Below are positions 8,864 through 36,315 of a stretch of 64,000 nucleotides of DNA, in pieces. Location: the NCBI GenBank assembly GCA_902802305.1, contig CADCLG010000001.1, positions 1 through 64,000 of the forward strand, in the 5' to 3' direction. Each line of letters starts with the position of its first letter. Position 1 is the stretch's first letter. Position numbers and translations under genes: made by a program. The notes beneath the pieces are model-generated. The model searched no databases. It was not told the origin of the DNA and saw nothing but the letters and a program-made list of their open reading frames with translations. This DNA comes from an uncultured Spirochaetaceae bacterium. GTDB lineage: Bacteria > Spirochaetota > Spirochaetia > Treponematales > Treponemataceae.

Positions 8864-10281
8864 TGGCATTGAATCAATATACACCTGAAGAGCCGATTTC
8901 TTCGATTGCAACGGCTTTGGCTCCTGCTGCTTTGGGAATTGTACGTGTGAGTGGTAAAAACTGCATTGAATTAATTTCGAAAGTTTTTTCCCGTCCTAAG
9001 GCTTTACTTGAAGCAGCTGGAAATACGCTTGTTTACGGGTGGATTCAGGATGCTGCCAGTCAGAATGAAGGTGAAAAAAGCCGCATTTATGATGAGGTTA
9101 TGCTTGGTGTGTATCGTGGGCCTAAAAGCTTTACCGGCGAAGATATGGTAGAAATCTTTTGTCATGGTGGCCCGGCAGTGGTGACTTCGATACATTCTCT
9201 TTTATTGAAAAATGGATTCAGGCAGGCTTTACCGGGTGAATATACTTTCCGTGCCTATATAAACGGCAAAGCAGATCTTACAAAAGCAGAAGCCGTAAAA
9301 GAAATCATAGACAGCCATACAAATGTTTCGCAGCAGCGTGCCGCAGGAAGACTTTCCGGTTCTTTACGACAGGAGATAGACGATATAAAAAAACTGATTG
9401 TGGATACAATTGCTGCAATTGAAGTTGAAATTGAATATCCTGAAGATGAAGAGACAATTGCAGATTCCTTTGATTCTTCTGCACTAAAAACTGCAATAAA
9501 AAGGCTTCAGTCACTTTCGGATTCTTGGAAAGGAGAAAAGCTTTATCAGGATGGAGCCCGAGTAGTTTTATGTGGTCGAACAAATGCAGGAAAATCTTCT
9601 TTATTTAATGCAATTTTGAAGGAAGAACGCGCTATTGTTTCTGAAATTGAAGGAACTACACGGGATTGGCTTGAAAGCTGGGCCAGTATAAATGGTATTC
9701 CTGTTCGTTTGTTTGATACAGCTGGATTGCGTAAAACAGATGATGTAATTGAAGCACGCGGTGTTGAACTTACAAAAAATCTTTCACAGGAAGCTGATTT
9801 GGTTTTATATCTGGTAGATTCTACCGGCGGTATGAATGATGAAGACCGTGATTTTATAAAAAATTGTGCCGAGCCACTTGTACTTGTATGGACTAAAGCC
9901 GACAAAAATGCTGCAAATAATGATTCAAAAACTCAAAGTGACGGACTGAAGGGTGATTTACCAGTCGCAGAAGTATTGTTGTCATCAAAGACAGGAGAAG
10001 GCCTTAAAGATCTTTTTTCAAAGATTTACTCTATTCTTACTCAAGGAATAAAAACAGACCGCGAGCAGGCTGGAATTGGTTCTTTGCGTCAGAAAAAAGC
10101 TGTGGATGAAGCCCTTGAATGTGTTAAGCACAGCCTTATTTCGGCAGAAGAGGATTATGCGCTTGATGCTGTAGTTCAGGATTTGGAAGATACTCTTGAT
10201 TGCCTTGCTGAAATTGTAGGTGAAGTAACTCCAGATGATGTTTTAGGCAGTATTTTTGCTAATTTCTGTGTTGGAAAATAG
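8863..10281 (+). CDS. mnmE: tRNA uridine-5-carboxymethylaminomethyl modification GTPase MnmE
   Basis: MnmE works with MnmG to install cmnm5 at U34 in the wobble position of tRNAs that read split codon boxes. The 472-residue protein has the N-terminal folate-binding domain (about 1-125), then a helical region into which the Ras-like G domain is inserted. G1 GRTNAGKSSLFN starts near residue 237, G2 GTTRDW lies near 263, G3 DTAGL near 283, and G4 TKAD near 345. The protein ends in FCVGK, the conserved C-x-G-K terminus that carries the essential cysteine. The ATG overlaps the preceding stop by one base, and AAGGGG upstream serves as ribosome binding site. mnmG is not nearby. Confidence 0.97.
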   Translation: MALNQYTPEEPISSIATALAPAALGIVRVSGKNCIELISKVFSRPKALLEAAGNTLVYGWIQDAASQNEGEKSRIYDEVMLGVYRGPKSFTGEDMVEIFCHGGPAVVTSIHSLLLKNGFRQALPGEYTFRAYINGKADLTKAEAVKEIIDSHTNVSQQRAAGRLSGSLRQEIDDIKKLIVDTIAAIEVEIEYPEDEETIADSFDSSALKTAIKRLQSLSDSWKGEKLYQDGARVVLCGRTNAGKSSLFNAILKEERAIVSEIEGTTRDWLESWASINGIPVRLFDTAGLRKTDDVIEARGVELTKNLSQEADLVLYLVDSTGGMNDEDRDFIKNCAEPLVLVWTKADKNAANNDSKTQSDGLKGDLPVAEVLLSSKTGEGLKDLFSKIYSILTQGIKTDREQAGIGSLRQKKAVDEALECVKHSLISAEEDYALDAVVQDLEDTLDCLAEIVGEVTPDDVLGSIFANFCVGK

Positions 10282-10331
10282 ATGATTTTGTAGGGAATAT
10301 TTCTGAAAGAAGCGTATTTTTGAAAAAGAAT

Positions 10332-10361
10332 TCGACAGAATTATTTCTATTATGTTATAAT
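10332..10361 (+). promoter_or_regulatory. predicted promoter of the chemotaxis receptor gene
   Basis: TCGACA (10332-10337), an 18-nt spacer and a consensus TATAAT (10356-10361) lie 37 bp before the ATG at 10399. An AGAGG ribosome binding site sits in the leader. This looks like a sigma70 promoter rather than the sigma28 type often used for motility genes. Confidence 0.5.
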
Positions 10362-10398
10362 TAATCGTTATACGCTTTTCCCTTAATCAGAGGTTATT

Positions 10399-12474
10399 AT
10401 GAAAATAAAACAGAAACTCATTGTGAGTTATGTTTCAATCGTTATTTTTTCAATTCTTGTTGTATCAATCCCTCTTTTCAGCTTACAGTTAAAAGAATTG
10501 GAATCTCAGTTACATAAAAATTCCGAAGCTCAGTTGAACATTGCCAGGCTTTCAATAGATTCTTTTTTTGATCTTCCTTCAAGAATTGTAAGAGACACAG
10601 CACCTTTTGTTAATAAAGGTAATCTTGATTTGGAAACAACTCAAAAAGAATTACAGAAAATGATTGATGGCCATTCCGCCCTTGCCTGTCTTTATTTTGC
10701 AGATGATAAGAATATATGGGATGGCGGAATGTTCTATTCCAGTGATGAATGGATTCCTGATAATACTTATGATAAATTGACCCGTGACTGGTTTGTTGAG
10801 GCAAAAAATACTTCTGATGTTGCTATTACGGAGCCTTATGTTGATGAAGATACAGGTGATTTGGTAAATACAGTTTGCTGTGCAATTTACGGAAATGACG
10901 GAAAATTTGTAGGCGTATCGGGTATAGATATTCATCTTACTGAATTGAATGGAATCATAGAAAATATAAAGCTTACAAAAGGCGGTCAGTCATTTATTCT
11001 GGATAAAGACGGCAATTACATAACAAATGATTCCCTTGATAAAATTCTTTCTGCTAACTTCTTCAAGGAATATAAGGAACTTGCGGGCTACAAAAATCAG
11101 ATGGGAAAAGAAACTGTAGTCAACATGAATGCCGGAAATGGTTATTATTTTATGTCCACCAAAATAGTAGACAGCAAAGGCTGGATTTTTGTAACAGTTG
11201 GAAAACAATCTGAGCTTTATGCTTCAATCAACAAGGGTTTTGTTATTTTTATTACAATTGGAATTGTCACTTTGATAGCTTCAATCCTCATCTCTCTCTT
11301 TATATCTTCGACTCTTGTAAAACCTATTATTGCTGTTGATTCTTCTGTTAATGAAATTGCTTCTGGTAATGCAGATTTAACCAAACGTCTTGAAGTTGTC
11401 AGTAAAGATGAAGTAGGAAGTCTCGGCACAGGGTTCAATAAATTCGTTGAAAAATTACAGGCGATTATTTCTCAAATTCAAGGATCAAAAGCCGAGCTTG
11501 GAAGTATTGAACAGGAGCTTAGTGGTAGTGTTTTGGATGCTTCCAGTTCAATTACAGAAATCCTTTCAAACATCGAAGGAATAGGAACTCAAATCAGCAA
11601 TCAGATTAATGCAGTTTCCCAAACTTCTTCAGCTGTCACAGAAATTGCAGAAAATATTAACAGTCTTGAAAATATGATTCAGAAGCAGGCTGATGGTGTT
11701 GAAAGTGCAAGTACGGCCGTTGAAGAAATGATTGGAAATATCCGTTCGGTTAATAATTCTGTAGAAAAAATGGCTGAATCATTTGAAAAACTGCAGGAGA
11801 GTTCTGCAAGTGGAATAGAACAGCAGTATGTTGTAGATAAGCAGATTAGCGAAGTTGCTGTTCAATCAAAAACTCTCCAGGATGCTAACCAGGCTATTGC
11901 TAATATTGCACGCCAGACTAATTTGCTTGCTATGAATGCAGCAATTGAAGCCGCTCATGCGGGAGAAGCTGGAAAGGGGTTTGCCGTAGTTGCTGACGAA
12001 ATCAGAAAGCTTTCCGAAACTTCTTCGGAGCAGTCAAAGAAAATTGGTATGGAGCTTGGTGTAATTGTAGAAACAATCAATGGTGTTGTAGCTGCTTCTT
12101 CTAAGAGTAAGCAGAATTTCAATGATGTTTCAAATCTGATTGTCGACACTGATGAACTTGTCCATCAAATCAGAACTGCTATGGAAGAACAGCAGGAGGG
12201 TTCAAAACAGATTCTTGAATCTCTTAAACTGATGAATGACAGTACTTCTGAGGTTAAGACTGCAGGTCAGGAGATGAAGGCTGGAAATCAGATGATTCTG
12301 TCGGAAATTCAGCATCTTCAGAATACTACAGCTGTCATTAAAGATAGTATGAGTGAAATGTCTGCTGGTGCAAAGGATATGAACAAAACTAGTGCCAGCC
12401 TGTCTGATATTACTGGAAAGGTTCACTATTCTATTCAGAAAATTGGTGCACAGATTGATCAGTTTAAGGCATAA
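10399..12474 (+). CDS. methyl-accepting chemotaxis protein with Cache sensor
   Basis: This 691-residue transmembrane receptor has a membrane segment near residues 8-28 and a large extracytoplasmic domain at about 35-270 that looks like a double-Cache ligand-binding module. It contains the Cache-typical stretch DWFVEAKN and later [10 protein letters not shown]-like strands. A second membrane segment lies near 275-300, a HAMP domain at about 302-355, and a long coiled-coil signalling domain to the end. The signalling tip is the highly conserved stretch around [18 protein letters not shown], followed by [12 protein letters not shown], which contacts CheA/CheW. The ligand cannot be read from the sequence. 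It is a single-gene unit with its own promoter, unlinked to other chemotaxis genes here. Confidence 0.93.
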
Positions 12475-33756: not shown

Positions 33757-35115
33757 TTAATTGTTAAACGCTTTTTTTATCAGTTCTTTTATTGTTGAAA
33801 CCGTAAGTGAAGAATTATCATCTTCGGGAGAAAGAACCTTTGAAAAGCCTGCCTGTTTAGCGGCTTTTATACGCTGCTTTGATTTGCTTACCAGCCTTAT
33901 TTCGCCTGCAAGACTTAATTCTCCAAAAATAACTGTATTGGAAGAAACTGGCAAATCTGCTCTTGCTGAATAAAGGGCAATTGCAATTGCAGCGTCTATA
34001 GAACTTTCGGAAAGCCTGATTCCTCCTGCAACATTTACGTAAATATCCTGATCGGAAAAAACTAAACCGCAGCGTTTTTCAATTACGGCGGCTATTCTTG
34101 CAATTCTTCCGGAATCTATTTTTTCACTGTAAATGCGGGAGATGCTTGCTTTGGCAGGAACTGTTAATGTTTGTATTTCAACAAGAAATACTCTTGAGCC
34201 TTCAAAAACCGGAGTACAGACAACTCCTGCGGGCAATGCTTCCTTTCTGCGGGTAAGAAAAATTGATGAAGGGTCTGAAACAGTTGTTAATCCTTTTTCT
34301 GTCATCGAAAAAATACCGATTTCATCAACTGCTCCAAATCTGTTTTTCTGGGCATGTAAAAATCGGATTTCATCATTATTTTTTTCAAAGGAAATTACTG
34401 TGTCAACCATGTGTTCAAGAGATTTTGGACCGGCAATTGAACCTTCTTTTGTAACATGGGCAGTCATAATCAGAACAGAATCACGTTCTTTTACCCATGA
34501 AATAAACTCATTGGCACAATATTTCAATTGATTTACCGTTCCAGGTATTATTCCGGCTTCAACAGAATAAATTGTCTGAATTGAATCAATAATAATGAGT
34601 GATGGATTAAGCGCGTCCATAGCGTCGAGAGCGTCTTCAAGTCGCGAAGTACATAATAATTGGATATTGCTGCAATCAATTTCAAGACGATCTGCTCTTT
34701 CTTTTATTTGAGCTGCAGATTCTTCTCCGCTTACATATAAAATACAGCCTGCTTTGTTTGCTGCTTCAAAACTAGCACATGTTTGAAGAAGGAGAGTTGA
34801 TTTTCCAATTCCGGGATCTCCACCCAAAAGAATTGCAGAACGTTTAATTGCTCCTCCTCCAAGAACTCTATCAAACTCCTGTATGCCGGTAGAAAATCTT
34901 GTGTTATCTTGGGCAGTGATAGATGAAAGATTTACAGGTTTTGCTTTTTCAACTTCTTCTTTACCTCTGCCTGCGGGAGTGACATTCATTTTGTCTATTA
35001 TAATTTCTTCAAAAGTATTCCATTCATTACATTCAGGACATTTTCCAAGCCAGCGAGGTTGAGAATATCCGCAATTGCTGCATTTATAAATAATTGATCC
35101 GTTTTTCTTTGCCAT
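33757..35115 (-). CDS. radA: DNA repair protein RadA
   Basis: RadA is a RecA-like ATPase that helps branch migration in homologous recombination. The 452-residue protein has the N-terminal C4 zinc finger (CSNCGYSQPRWLGKCPEC near residue 11), Walker A GDPGIGKST near 98, the RadA-specific KNRFG motif in AQKNRFGAVDEIG near 255, and a C-terminal Lon-protease-like domain with GGIRLSESSIDAAIA. The length is typical. The ATG is preceded by a GGGGT ribosome binding site. The predicted small RNA locus and then cysE lie upstream on the chromosome. Confidence 0.96.
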   Translation of the reverse strand: MAKKNGSIIYKCSNCGYSQPRWLGKCPECNEWNTFEEIIIDKMNVTPAGRGKEEVEKAKPVNLSSITAQDNTRFSTGIQEFDRVLGGGAIKRSAILLGGDPGIGKSTLLLQTCASFEAANKAGCILYVSGEESAAQIKERADRLEIDCSNIQLLCTSRLEDALDAMDALNPSLIIIDSIQTIYSVEAGIIPGTVNQLKYCANEFISWVKERDSVLIMTAHVTKEGSIAGPKSLEHMVDTVISFEKNNDEIRFLHAQKNRFGAVDEIGIFSMTEKGLTTVSDPSSIFLTRRKEALPAGVVCTPVFEGSRVFLVEIQTLTVPAKASISRIYSEKIDSGRIARIAAVIEKRCGLVFSDQDIYVNVAGGIRLSESSIDAAIAIALYSARADLPVSSNTVIFGELSLAGEIRLVSKSKQRIKAAKQAGFSKVLSPEDDNSSLTVSTIKELIKKAFNN

Positions 35116-35157: not shown

Positions 35158-35186
35158 TTGACAGCTTTTTAATAAGATGTTATATT
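35158..35186 (+). promoter_or_regulatory. near-consensus promoter of a predicted small RNA
   Basis: TTGACA (35158-35163), exactly 17 nt, then TATATT (35181-35186). No plus-strand protein gene follows, only the hairpins and terminator of the predicted RNA. Confidence 0.7.
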
Positions 35187-35192
35187 ATAGTC

Positions 35193-35289
35193 AGCTTGTA
35201 AATAAGCTGATAAACTCTCTCCGATGTTCAGCATAGCTGGACGGCAGGATTCCCTTTTAGTGTTACTGTTTGGGAATCCTGTTTTTTTT
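35193..35289 (+). ncRNA. candidate small regulatory RNA (about 97 nt)
   Basis: The RNA would begin with a hairpin TCAGCTT/AAGCTGA (35191-35210), continue with an unpaired CU-rich stretch ATAAACTCTCTCCGAT (35210-35225), and form a second hairpin GTTCAGC/GCTGGAC with a 3-nt loop (35226-35242). It ends in the terminator CAGGATTCCC/GGGAATCCTG (35245-35281) followed by eight T. The CU-rich loop is complementary to Shine-Dalgarno sequences, a design seen in translation-blocking small RNAs. The same 13 bases, ATAAACTCTCTCC, recur at 35326-35338. A 52-codon minus-strand frame (35327 to 35169) with an AGGAG ribosome binding site overlaps this locus and remains a competing reading. The RNA does not resemble SRP RNA, 6S RNA or tmRNA. 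Confidence 0.55.
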
Positions 35290-35364
35290 AACTCATACAA
35301 CCTTGAATTGATTCTGAAGTTTTTCATAAACTCTCTCCTTTTTTTTTGTGAAATCAAATTAAAC

Positions 35365-36222
35365 TTAGATTGTAATAACGGATTCTGCTGGAATGGATTT
35401 TGTTACCCAGGTATTTCCACCGATTGTACTGTCATGTCCAATTACAGTTTCACCACCGAGAATTGTTGCTCCAGCGTAGATTGTAACGTTGTCTTCAATC
35501 GTAGGATGGCGTTTTTTGTTTTGCAGTGATTTTTTAACGCTTAAAGCACCGAGGGTAACGCCCTGGTAGATTTTTACATTATTTCCGATTATACAGGTTT
35601 CTCCGATTACTACGCCGGTTCCGTGATCAATAAAGAAAGAATCACCGATTGTTGCTCCAGGGTGAATGTCGATTCCTGTTTTTCCGTGTATGTGTTCGCT
35701 CATGATACGAGGAATGATTGGTACTCCGTTCATAAAAAGAAAATGTGCAATTCTGTGAACGACAATTGCTTCCAGTCCAGGGTAAGAAAGAATAACTTCT
35801 TCAGCGCTTTTTGCAGCTGGATCTCCATCAAAGGCGGCTTTTGTATCAAGAACAATTTTAGCTCTTATTCTAGGAAGTTCTTCAATAAGTGCAATTGAGG
35901 TTTGTTCTGCAAGCTTAAAACAGCGTGAATCAGCAGTATTTCCAGCTTTGCAACCTTTGTTGGTTGTATAAATCATTGCTTTCTGGATTTCTTTAGTAAG
36001 ATTTGCGATTATATTGTTGACTTTCTGTCCTGTGATATAACGAATATTTATTGGATCAAGATTTTCATCAATTTTAAATCCTGGTAAAATCAGTGATTGT
36101 AAATCAGAAAGAACTGCAACGACATTCTGTCTGTTAGGAAAGTTACCTGAATCGGTTCTGTTAATAAGTCCCTGTTCATCATAAGATTTTAAAAGACCGT
36201 CAACCAAACTATCTATATTCAT
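35365..36222 (-). CDS. cysE: serine O-acetyltransferase
   Basis: CysE acetylates serine with acetyl-CoA, the step that commits serine to cysteine synthesis. The 285-residue protein has a helical N-terminal domain and a C-terminal left-handed beta-helix of hexapeptide repeats. The active-site region is [19 protein letters not shown], followed by [30 protein letters not shown]. The length and the extended N-terminus resemble the EpsC-like subgroup. A GAGGT ribosome binding site precedes the ATG. The leader has two strong inverted repeats, which point to RNA-level control. cysK is not in the window. Confidence 0.95.
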
Positions 36223-36244
36223 TTGTACCTCAAAAAAGTAATTT

Positions 36245-36315
36245 GCAGTTTGCTTGGCAAACTGCAGAAGCAGCTAGTATTAATATAGTGCTGAGTACCA
36301 ATGCCCAGCTGCTTC
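36245..36315 (-). promoter_or_regulatory. structured cysE leader, possible attenuator
   Basis: In the order of cysE transcription, GAAGCAGCT pairs with AGCTGCTTC (36315-36307 with 36275-36267) around a 31-nt loop. Next comes GCAGTTTGC/GCAAACTGC (36265-36245) with a 3-nt loop, then a T-rich run in front of the ribosome binding site. This resembles an antiterminator/terminator leader, but no T-box or known riboswitch core is recognisable. Confidence 0.5.

Follow-up and report, generated by a model that had tools for sequence, protein, structure and literature searches.

The sRNAs of the LhrC family of Listeria each carry several CU-rich sites and are induced under stress by LisRK. In streptococci, five cia-dependent csRNAs, controlled by CiaR, present an unpaired region between two stem-loops that is complementary to the Shine-Dalgarno (SD) sequence and the start region (PMC3091779). 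Phages can encode RNAs directed against such regulators: AgvB, a prophage anti-sRNA against GcvB, is a separate sRNA of ~60 nt in an Hfq-containing bacterium (PMC4104026, PMC12197685). Here we compare with these systems an sRNA gene found between radA and cysE of an uncultured Spirochaetaceae bacterium; positions refer to the window, i.e. the whole stretch of 64,000 nt that was analysed.

The Treponema sRNA resembles the csRNAs in the unpaired anti-SD region between stem-loops, the existence of similar copies in a genus and the terminator at its end. It differs from them in phylum, sequence, an extra hairpin, the existence of phage counterparts and copy number (one to three, against five), and its anti-SD sequence is not accompanied by the CAU anti-start element, GAU being present here. 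It is presumably also free of CiaR control, as no operator shared between the loci was noticed. By analogy it would work like the csRNAs, but it is not a member of that group, given the missing CAU, the other phylum and the lack of a relation in Rfam. With LhrC it shares CU-rich unpaired segments and the presence of several copies in some genomes; no sequence relation to LhrC was found by Rfam. The likeness to AgvB concerns the phage side, where an RNA is complementary to the pairing site of a core host sRNA; unlike AgvB, the complement described below is located in mRNA leaders before phage genes, together with a hairpin, and not in a separate phage sRNA. Taken alone, the sRNA family would add a member to a known kind of RNA, and it is the recurrent phage leaders that set it apart.

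The presence of an sRNA gene in the region 35158-35338 was confirmed. The plus strand between 35158 and 35290 contains a complete predicted gene with a promoter, hairpins and an intrinsic terminator (Table 1). The near-consensus promoter, the strong terminator and the exposed CU-rich 13-mer (ATAAACTCTCTCC, unpaired at 35210-35222) had all been read correctly in the first-pass annotation, which had counted two hairpins where we found three, the terminator included. At least 10 of the 12 promoter consensus bases are kept in 127 of 151 homolog loci, and the 17-nt spacer in 133. The RNA 35193-35290 has a folding energy of -34.8 kcal/mol (z -5.6), which was equalled by none of 200 shuffled sequences. 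The sRNA is present in a single copy in its own genome, two candidate second copies (C3 and C6) being judged chance matches. A plus-strand frame of 101 codons (35224-35529) overlaps the sRNA and was judged spurious because it is antisense to cysE. From these sequence features we conclude that the locus is an independent bacterial sRNA gene, with its own promoter, a covarying structured RNA and an intrinsic terminator and without a conserved frame, and that it is presumably transcribed.

Table 1. Features of the sRNA locus and its surroundings (window coordinates)
Feature	Position	Strand	Basis or remark
radA, usual 5'-side neighbour	33757..35115	-	neighbourhood of homolog loci
Sigma70-type promoter TTGACA-17-TATATT, extended -10	35158..35186	+	11/12 consensus bases, TG before -10
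sRNA, ~97 nt (predicted start near 35193, end in U-tract)	35193..35289	+	fold and homologs
Hairpin 1 (AGCUUGUAAAUAAGCU)	35193..35208	+	invariant in tight set, compensatory changes in wide set
Unpaired pairing segment GAUAAACUCUCUCC	35209..35222	+	between hairpins 1 and 2
Most conserved core AAACUCUCUCC	35212-35222	+	unpaired, between hairpins
Hairpin 2	35226..35242	+	compensatory changes in 5/7 pairs
Terminator hairpin and U8	35245..35289	+	compensatory changes in all 10 outer and 3 inner pairs
Terminator parts: hairpin; inner stem-loop; U8	35245-35281; 35259-35267; 35282-35289	+	
Second exact copy of complement, GGAGAGAGTTTAT	35326..35338	-	SD-ATG position before 52-codon frame
52-codon frame, antisense to sRNA, rejected as a gene	35169..35327	-	start and both ends unconserved
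cysE, serine acetyltransferase, usual 3'-side neighbour	35365..36222	-	hexapeptide transferase by Pfam

Of 196 genomes of the genus, 175 gave a match in a DNA search (E<=0.1), although the weakest matches may be due to chance. Treponema bryantii, T. ruminis, T. berlinense, T. porcinum, T. socranskii and T. brennaborense are carriers among the matches listed. Since some genomes of the genus gave no match, the sRNA is not essential everywhere. The covariance model detected the sRNA in 100 of 135 high-completeness genomes of the family Treponemataceae (one match is false) and, over the phylum, in 56 of 393 genomes, all within one family; no sRNA was found elsewhere among these 393 genomes. The match L248 in genus g2 was rejected as a false positive because it lies inside a gene and does not contain the core. 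In a tight set of 38 aligned homologs, compensatory changes were present in 18 of 25 pairs and 98.9% of the cells were paired, and the observed covariation values were reached by none of 500 shuffles and by no slid structure. In a wide set, which was aligned by fitting to the model and contained one weak antisense match, removed before model R2 was built, compensatory changes were found in 23 of 25 pairs, hairpin 1 included; paired cells amounted to 98-99% across both alignments. The conservation and the decisive covariation establish the sRNA as an RNA gene.

Almost no variation is seen in the unpaired segment AUAAACUCUCUCC, even at loci with a replaced hairpin 1; in L249 and L250 the hairpin 1 stem is entirely different, yet it is still complementary and the core is kept. 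The mean unpaired probability of the core is 0.88-0.95 per base in 156 homologs, which were chosen for carrying the core, so that this value tests accessibility and not invariance. A second subfamily contains GAUAAAACUCUCUCCUUUAG; several of its members (L084, L088, L089 and L090) closely follow an hsp20 gene of the same strand. No family of Rfam 15 scores above its gathering cut-off for the sRNA, and no paper describing it was found in the open-access literature. BjrC68 (RF02353) matched the paralog L091 with 28.4 bits against a cut-off of 39 bits, on the hairpin and terminator with the core uncovered, and this likeness was judged a generic hairpin-terminator resemblance; resemblances to PyrR and MicX were below the cut-off or due to chance. 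The sRNA belongs to a previously uncatalogued family of RNAs of about 85-105 nt in the Treponemataceae; the first-pass annotation had likewise called the RNA a new one.

When viral contigs were scanned for the core, one of them (L378) proved to have three antisense copies, at 9374-9412, 9913-9951 and 11202-11240, the best of which is complementary to sRNA nt 1-32 with zero mismatches. The same kind of element is present in two relatives of this phage (L383 and L384) and in phages without detected relation to it, L391 on the one hand and L404 and L405 on the other; the last two were counted as one group because they also have upstream sequence in common. The phage contigs concerned include IMGVR 3300031993_000106, 3300021255_000121, 3300028832_000200, 3300028591_000012 and 3300031993_000037. 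The elements contain GGAGAGAGUUUAUC (AGAGAGAGUUUAUC in L404 and L405), which is mostly followed by a short hairpin whose loop contains or adjoins UUACAAG or UUAUAAG, and then by an SD sequence and a start codon. Both blocks of the element are in register with the sRNA, and the two loop sequences match the two common host variants of hairpin 1, CUUGUAA and GCUUAUAA. In three unrelated phage groups, 26-32 of the 33 nucleotides complementary to sRNA nt 1-33 were matched just upstream of phage ribosome-binding sites; 200 shuffled queries gave no more than 22-23, and control phage contigs gave 18-22. The predicted leader-sRNA duplexes reach -57 kcal/mol. In L405 the element is also part of a longer open frame, which makes its status as a leader less certain. 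L387 is a weak case: it has a related phage gene and matches over 14 nt, but its overall complementarity, 21/33, is within the control range. The extended complementarity beyond chance that characterizes anti-sRNAs and sponges was found in the phage leaders, L387 alone excepted. The 14-mer followed by an SD sequence was not above control in viral contigs (8 occurrences against 11 for the control pattern), and the matches in L379-L381, L386, L388 and L392, which are apparently inside coding sequence and do not form a leader element, were taken as chance.

Phage mRNA leaders are the strongest complementary partners that we found. Because they are antisense to sRNA nt 1-33 beyond the shuffled controls, direct pairing between sRNA and leaders is likely, and the phage transcripts are very likely real partners of the sRNA. 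The complementarity also suggests Treponema as the host of these phages. In L378 and L383, one copy of the element precedes a frame of seven codons (MRMPQAP and MYWPTAP) followed by a stop, and the large phage contig L405 encodes a reverse transcriptase (phrog_1423) at 9442-10686.

On the host side, Hfq (PF17209) was found neither in the genome of origin nor in 20 relatives and was detected in five control genomes; the Hfq-encoding host that defines Hfq-dependent trans-acting sRNAs is not what we see here. The CU-rich exposed segment is complementary to GGAGAGAG-type ribosome-binding sites, as had been noted when the RNA was first compared with CU-motif repressor RNAs, and to this extent the anti-SD reading is supported. 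General repression at host sites found no clear support. Global anti-SD mimicry was rejected because GGAGAGAG seldom precedes ATG and its frequency there is close to that of the control. In 196 genomes, we counted 51 instances of GGAGAGAGTTT close to an ATG; a control of the same composition gave 42. For GGAGAGAGTTTATG, 11 sites (the window site included) were tallied by eye among the matches listed, against 12, 6, 4, 2 and 1 for the five remaining variants with identical base content, i.e. at the upper end of the range (1-12) and inside it. All ten GGAGAGAGTTTATG sites outside the window start long frames, and so do 24 of 28 sites in a mixed variant set. Some of the genes that start at GGAGAGAGTTTATG encode solute-binding proteins, lipoproteins and ABC exporters, with no significant excess of exported proteins. 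Scans with GGAGRGRGTTT, GGAGAGAGTTT and GGAGRRRRTTTATG did not demonstrate recurrent host targets, and no orthologous target recurs widely in the start-site scans. Host start sites complementary to the sRNA were not clearly over-represented. The complement of the sRNA segment may also resemble the 5' end of 16S rRNA.

Several host sites were observed in addition. In two genomes (L283 from 1501, plus strand, and L291 from 1501, minus strand), GGAGAGAGTTT starts a leader frame of 19 codons that precedes DUF2292 and metK; an inverted repeat, ACCTAT...ATAGGT, lies upstream of the frame. The frame ends in HLLFFDCTF or HLLFFDCCF and looks like a cysteine-related leader peptide; together with cysE beside the sRNA, it hints at a link to sulfur metabolism, which we regard as a lead only. 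Apparently orthologous ABC exporter genes of L292, L342 and L352 all start with GGAG(A/G)GAGTTTATG. This sequence is compatible with pairing and makes the exporters candidate targets, although the agreement could reflect either a conserved target or plain relatedness.

We consider it probable that the RNA is a regulatory RNA of the Treponemataceae that pairs with mRNA leaders independently of Hfq, and that phages titrate or exploit it. Transcription of the sRNA would begin at a strong housekeeping-type promoter of its own and stop at the intrinsic terminator. The near-invariant unpaired GAUAAACUCUCUCC would serve as the pairing site, and hairpin 1 could extend the pairing with its loop and 5' arm. 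Most likely, the sRNA needs no Hfq to bind mRNA leaders, which it contacts at the ribosome-binding site or shortly before it, thereby altering translation or stability; leaders with GGAGAGAGUUUAU would be the regulated partners, and regulation would depend on the sRNA part CUCUCUCC. Pairing in the cell is predicted from complementarity, which does not reveal the sign of the regulation. This explanation is favoured by the covariation, the conserved promoter, the family distribution and the exposed core that is kept when hairpin 1 is replaced, as well as by the apparent absence of Hfq, the antisense leaders in three unrelated phage groups and the agreement of the phage loops with the host variants of hairpin 1; the lack of clear over-representation of host target sites and the genomes of the genus in which no match was found count against it.

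Among the other explanations, a small protein gene on the minus strand, with the plus-strand RNA being incidental, is barely credible. The first-pass annotation was exact about the second copy of the complement, which forms GGAGAGAGTTTATG before the 52-codon frame and provides an excellent SD and ATG at 35338-35325. Within the whole 3.5-Mb genome, the two sites, 116 bp apart, are the only exact copies of the 13-mer on either strand, which indicates that the repeat is not due to chance, and a duplex of the second copy with the sRNA is predicted at about -25 kcal/mol. However, the second copy and the frame start are absent from related loci, the frame's ends are missing there too, and conservation follows plus-strand base pairing, so that the conserved minus-strand peptide that would have spoken against an sRNA was not found. 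A cis-acting leader or attenuator of cysE is very unlikely. The neighbourhood itself is robust without proving function: cysE is the 3'-side neighbour in 84 of 137 loci, counted where both flanks cover 1 kb or more, and a few species (L046 and L085) have it on the same strand, starting about 15 nt past the terminator U-tract. On the other hand, cysE is convergent in 72 of these loci (12 are on the same strand), and many sRNA copies are located away from it, which excludes leader action at such loci. It is also quite unlikely that the CU-rich segment is read by a protein instead of an RNA. A short fixed single-stranded motif between hairpins would suit a protein, whereas the long in-register antisense copies in phage leaders would be left unexplained.

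A stronger contender, to which we give somewhat less than an even chance, is an ordinary csRNA-like anti-SD repressor of host genes for transport, the envelope and perhaps sulfur metabolism, whose targets the phages merely mimic. The GGAGAGAGTTTATG sequences found where genes for solute-binding proteins, lipoproteins and exporters really start, the DUF2292-metK leader frame with its matching start region and the cysE neighbourhood agree with such a role, but target-site counts are near controls, exported proteins are not significantly in excess and no target is widely conserved. Alternatively, the sRNA could be a host defence RNA, kept for pairing with phage leaders that it blocks or cleaves and that phages retain for reasons of their own. 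The near-invariant core, the near-universal presence and the phage leaders as best complementary partners are in line with this, yet we find it unlikely: mutation could free the phages, and nevertheless the complementarity stays near-perfect in unrelated phages, of which one has three copies of the element. For the same reason, we think that the element benefits the phage, as a sponge or a leader responsive to the host RNA, and is not solely a target of host defence.

Returning to the reading in which phages titrate or exploit the host RNA, its bolder form is tentative, at nearly an even chance: an Hfq-independent spirochaete sRNA would be the phages' shared contact point, and antisense leaders of at least three unrelated groups would pair with its whole 5' third, wiring phage expression or host takeover to it (sponge, hijacked activator or defence evasion). 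The antisense copies in unrelated phage leaders connect phage biology directly to a core bacterial sRNA, and the RNA may be a contact point between gut and rumen relatives of Treponema and their phages. No described sRNA of this kind was found for rumen, gut and oral treponemes, where Hfq was also not found. Because it is near-universal and its pairing site is almost unchanging, the RNA, which probably works by pairing with other RNAs, offers a defined entry to RNA regulation in treponemes.

The repeat of the sRNA core downstream of the gene is found in this genome only. In T. porcinum, cysE is located on the other side of the sRNA, with a tRNA between them. A terminator-like hairpin, TGCAGTTTGCCAAGCAAACTGCA, is present at 36244-36266 of the minus strand, just upstream of the cysE ribosome-binding site, and is a possible attenuator.
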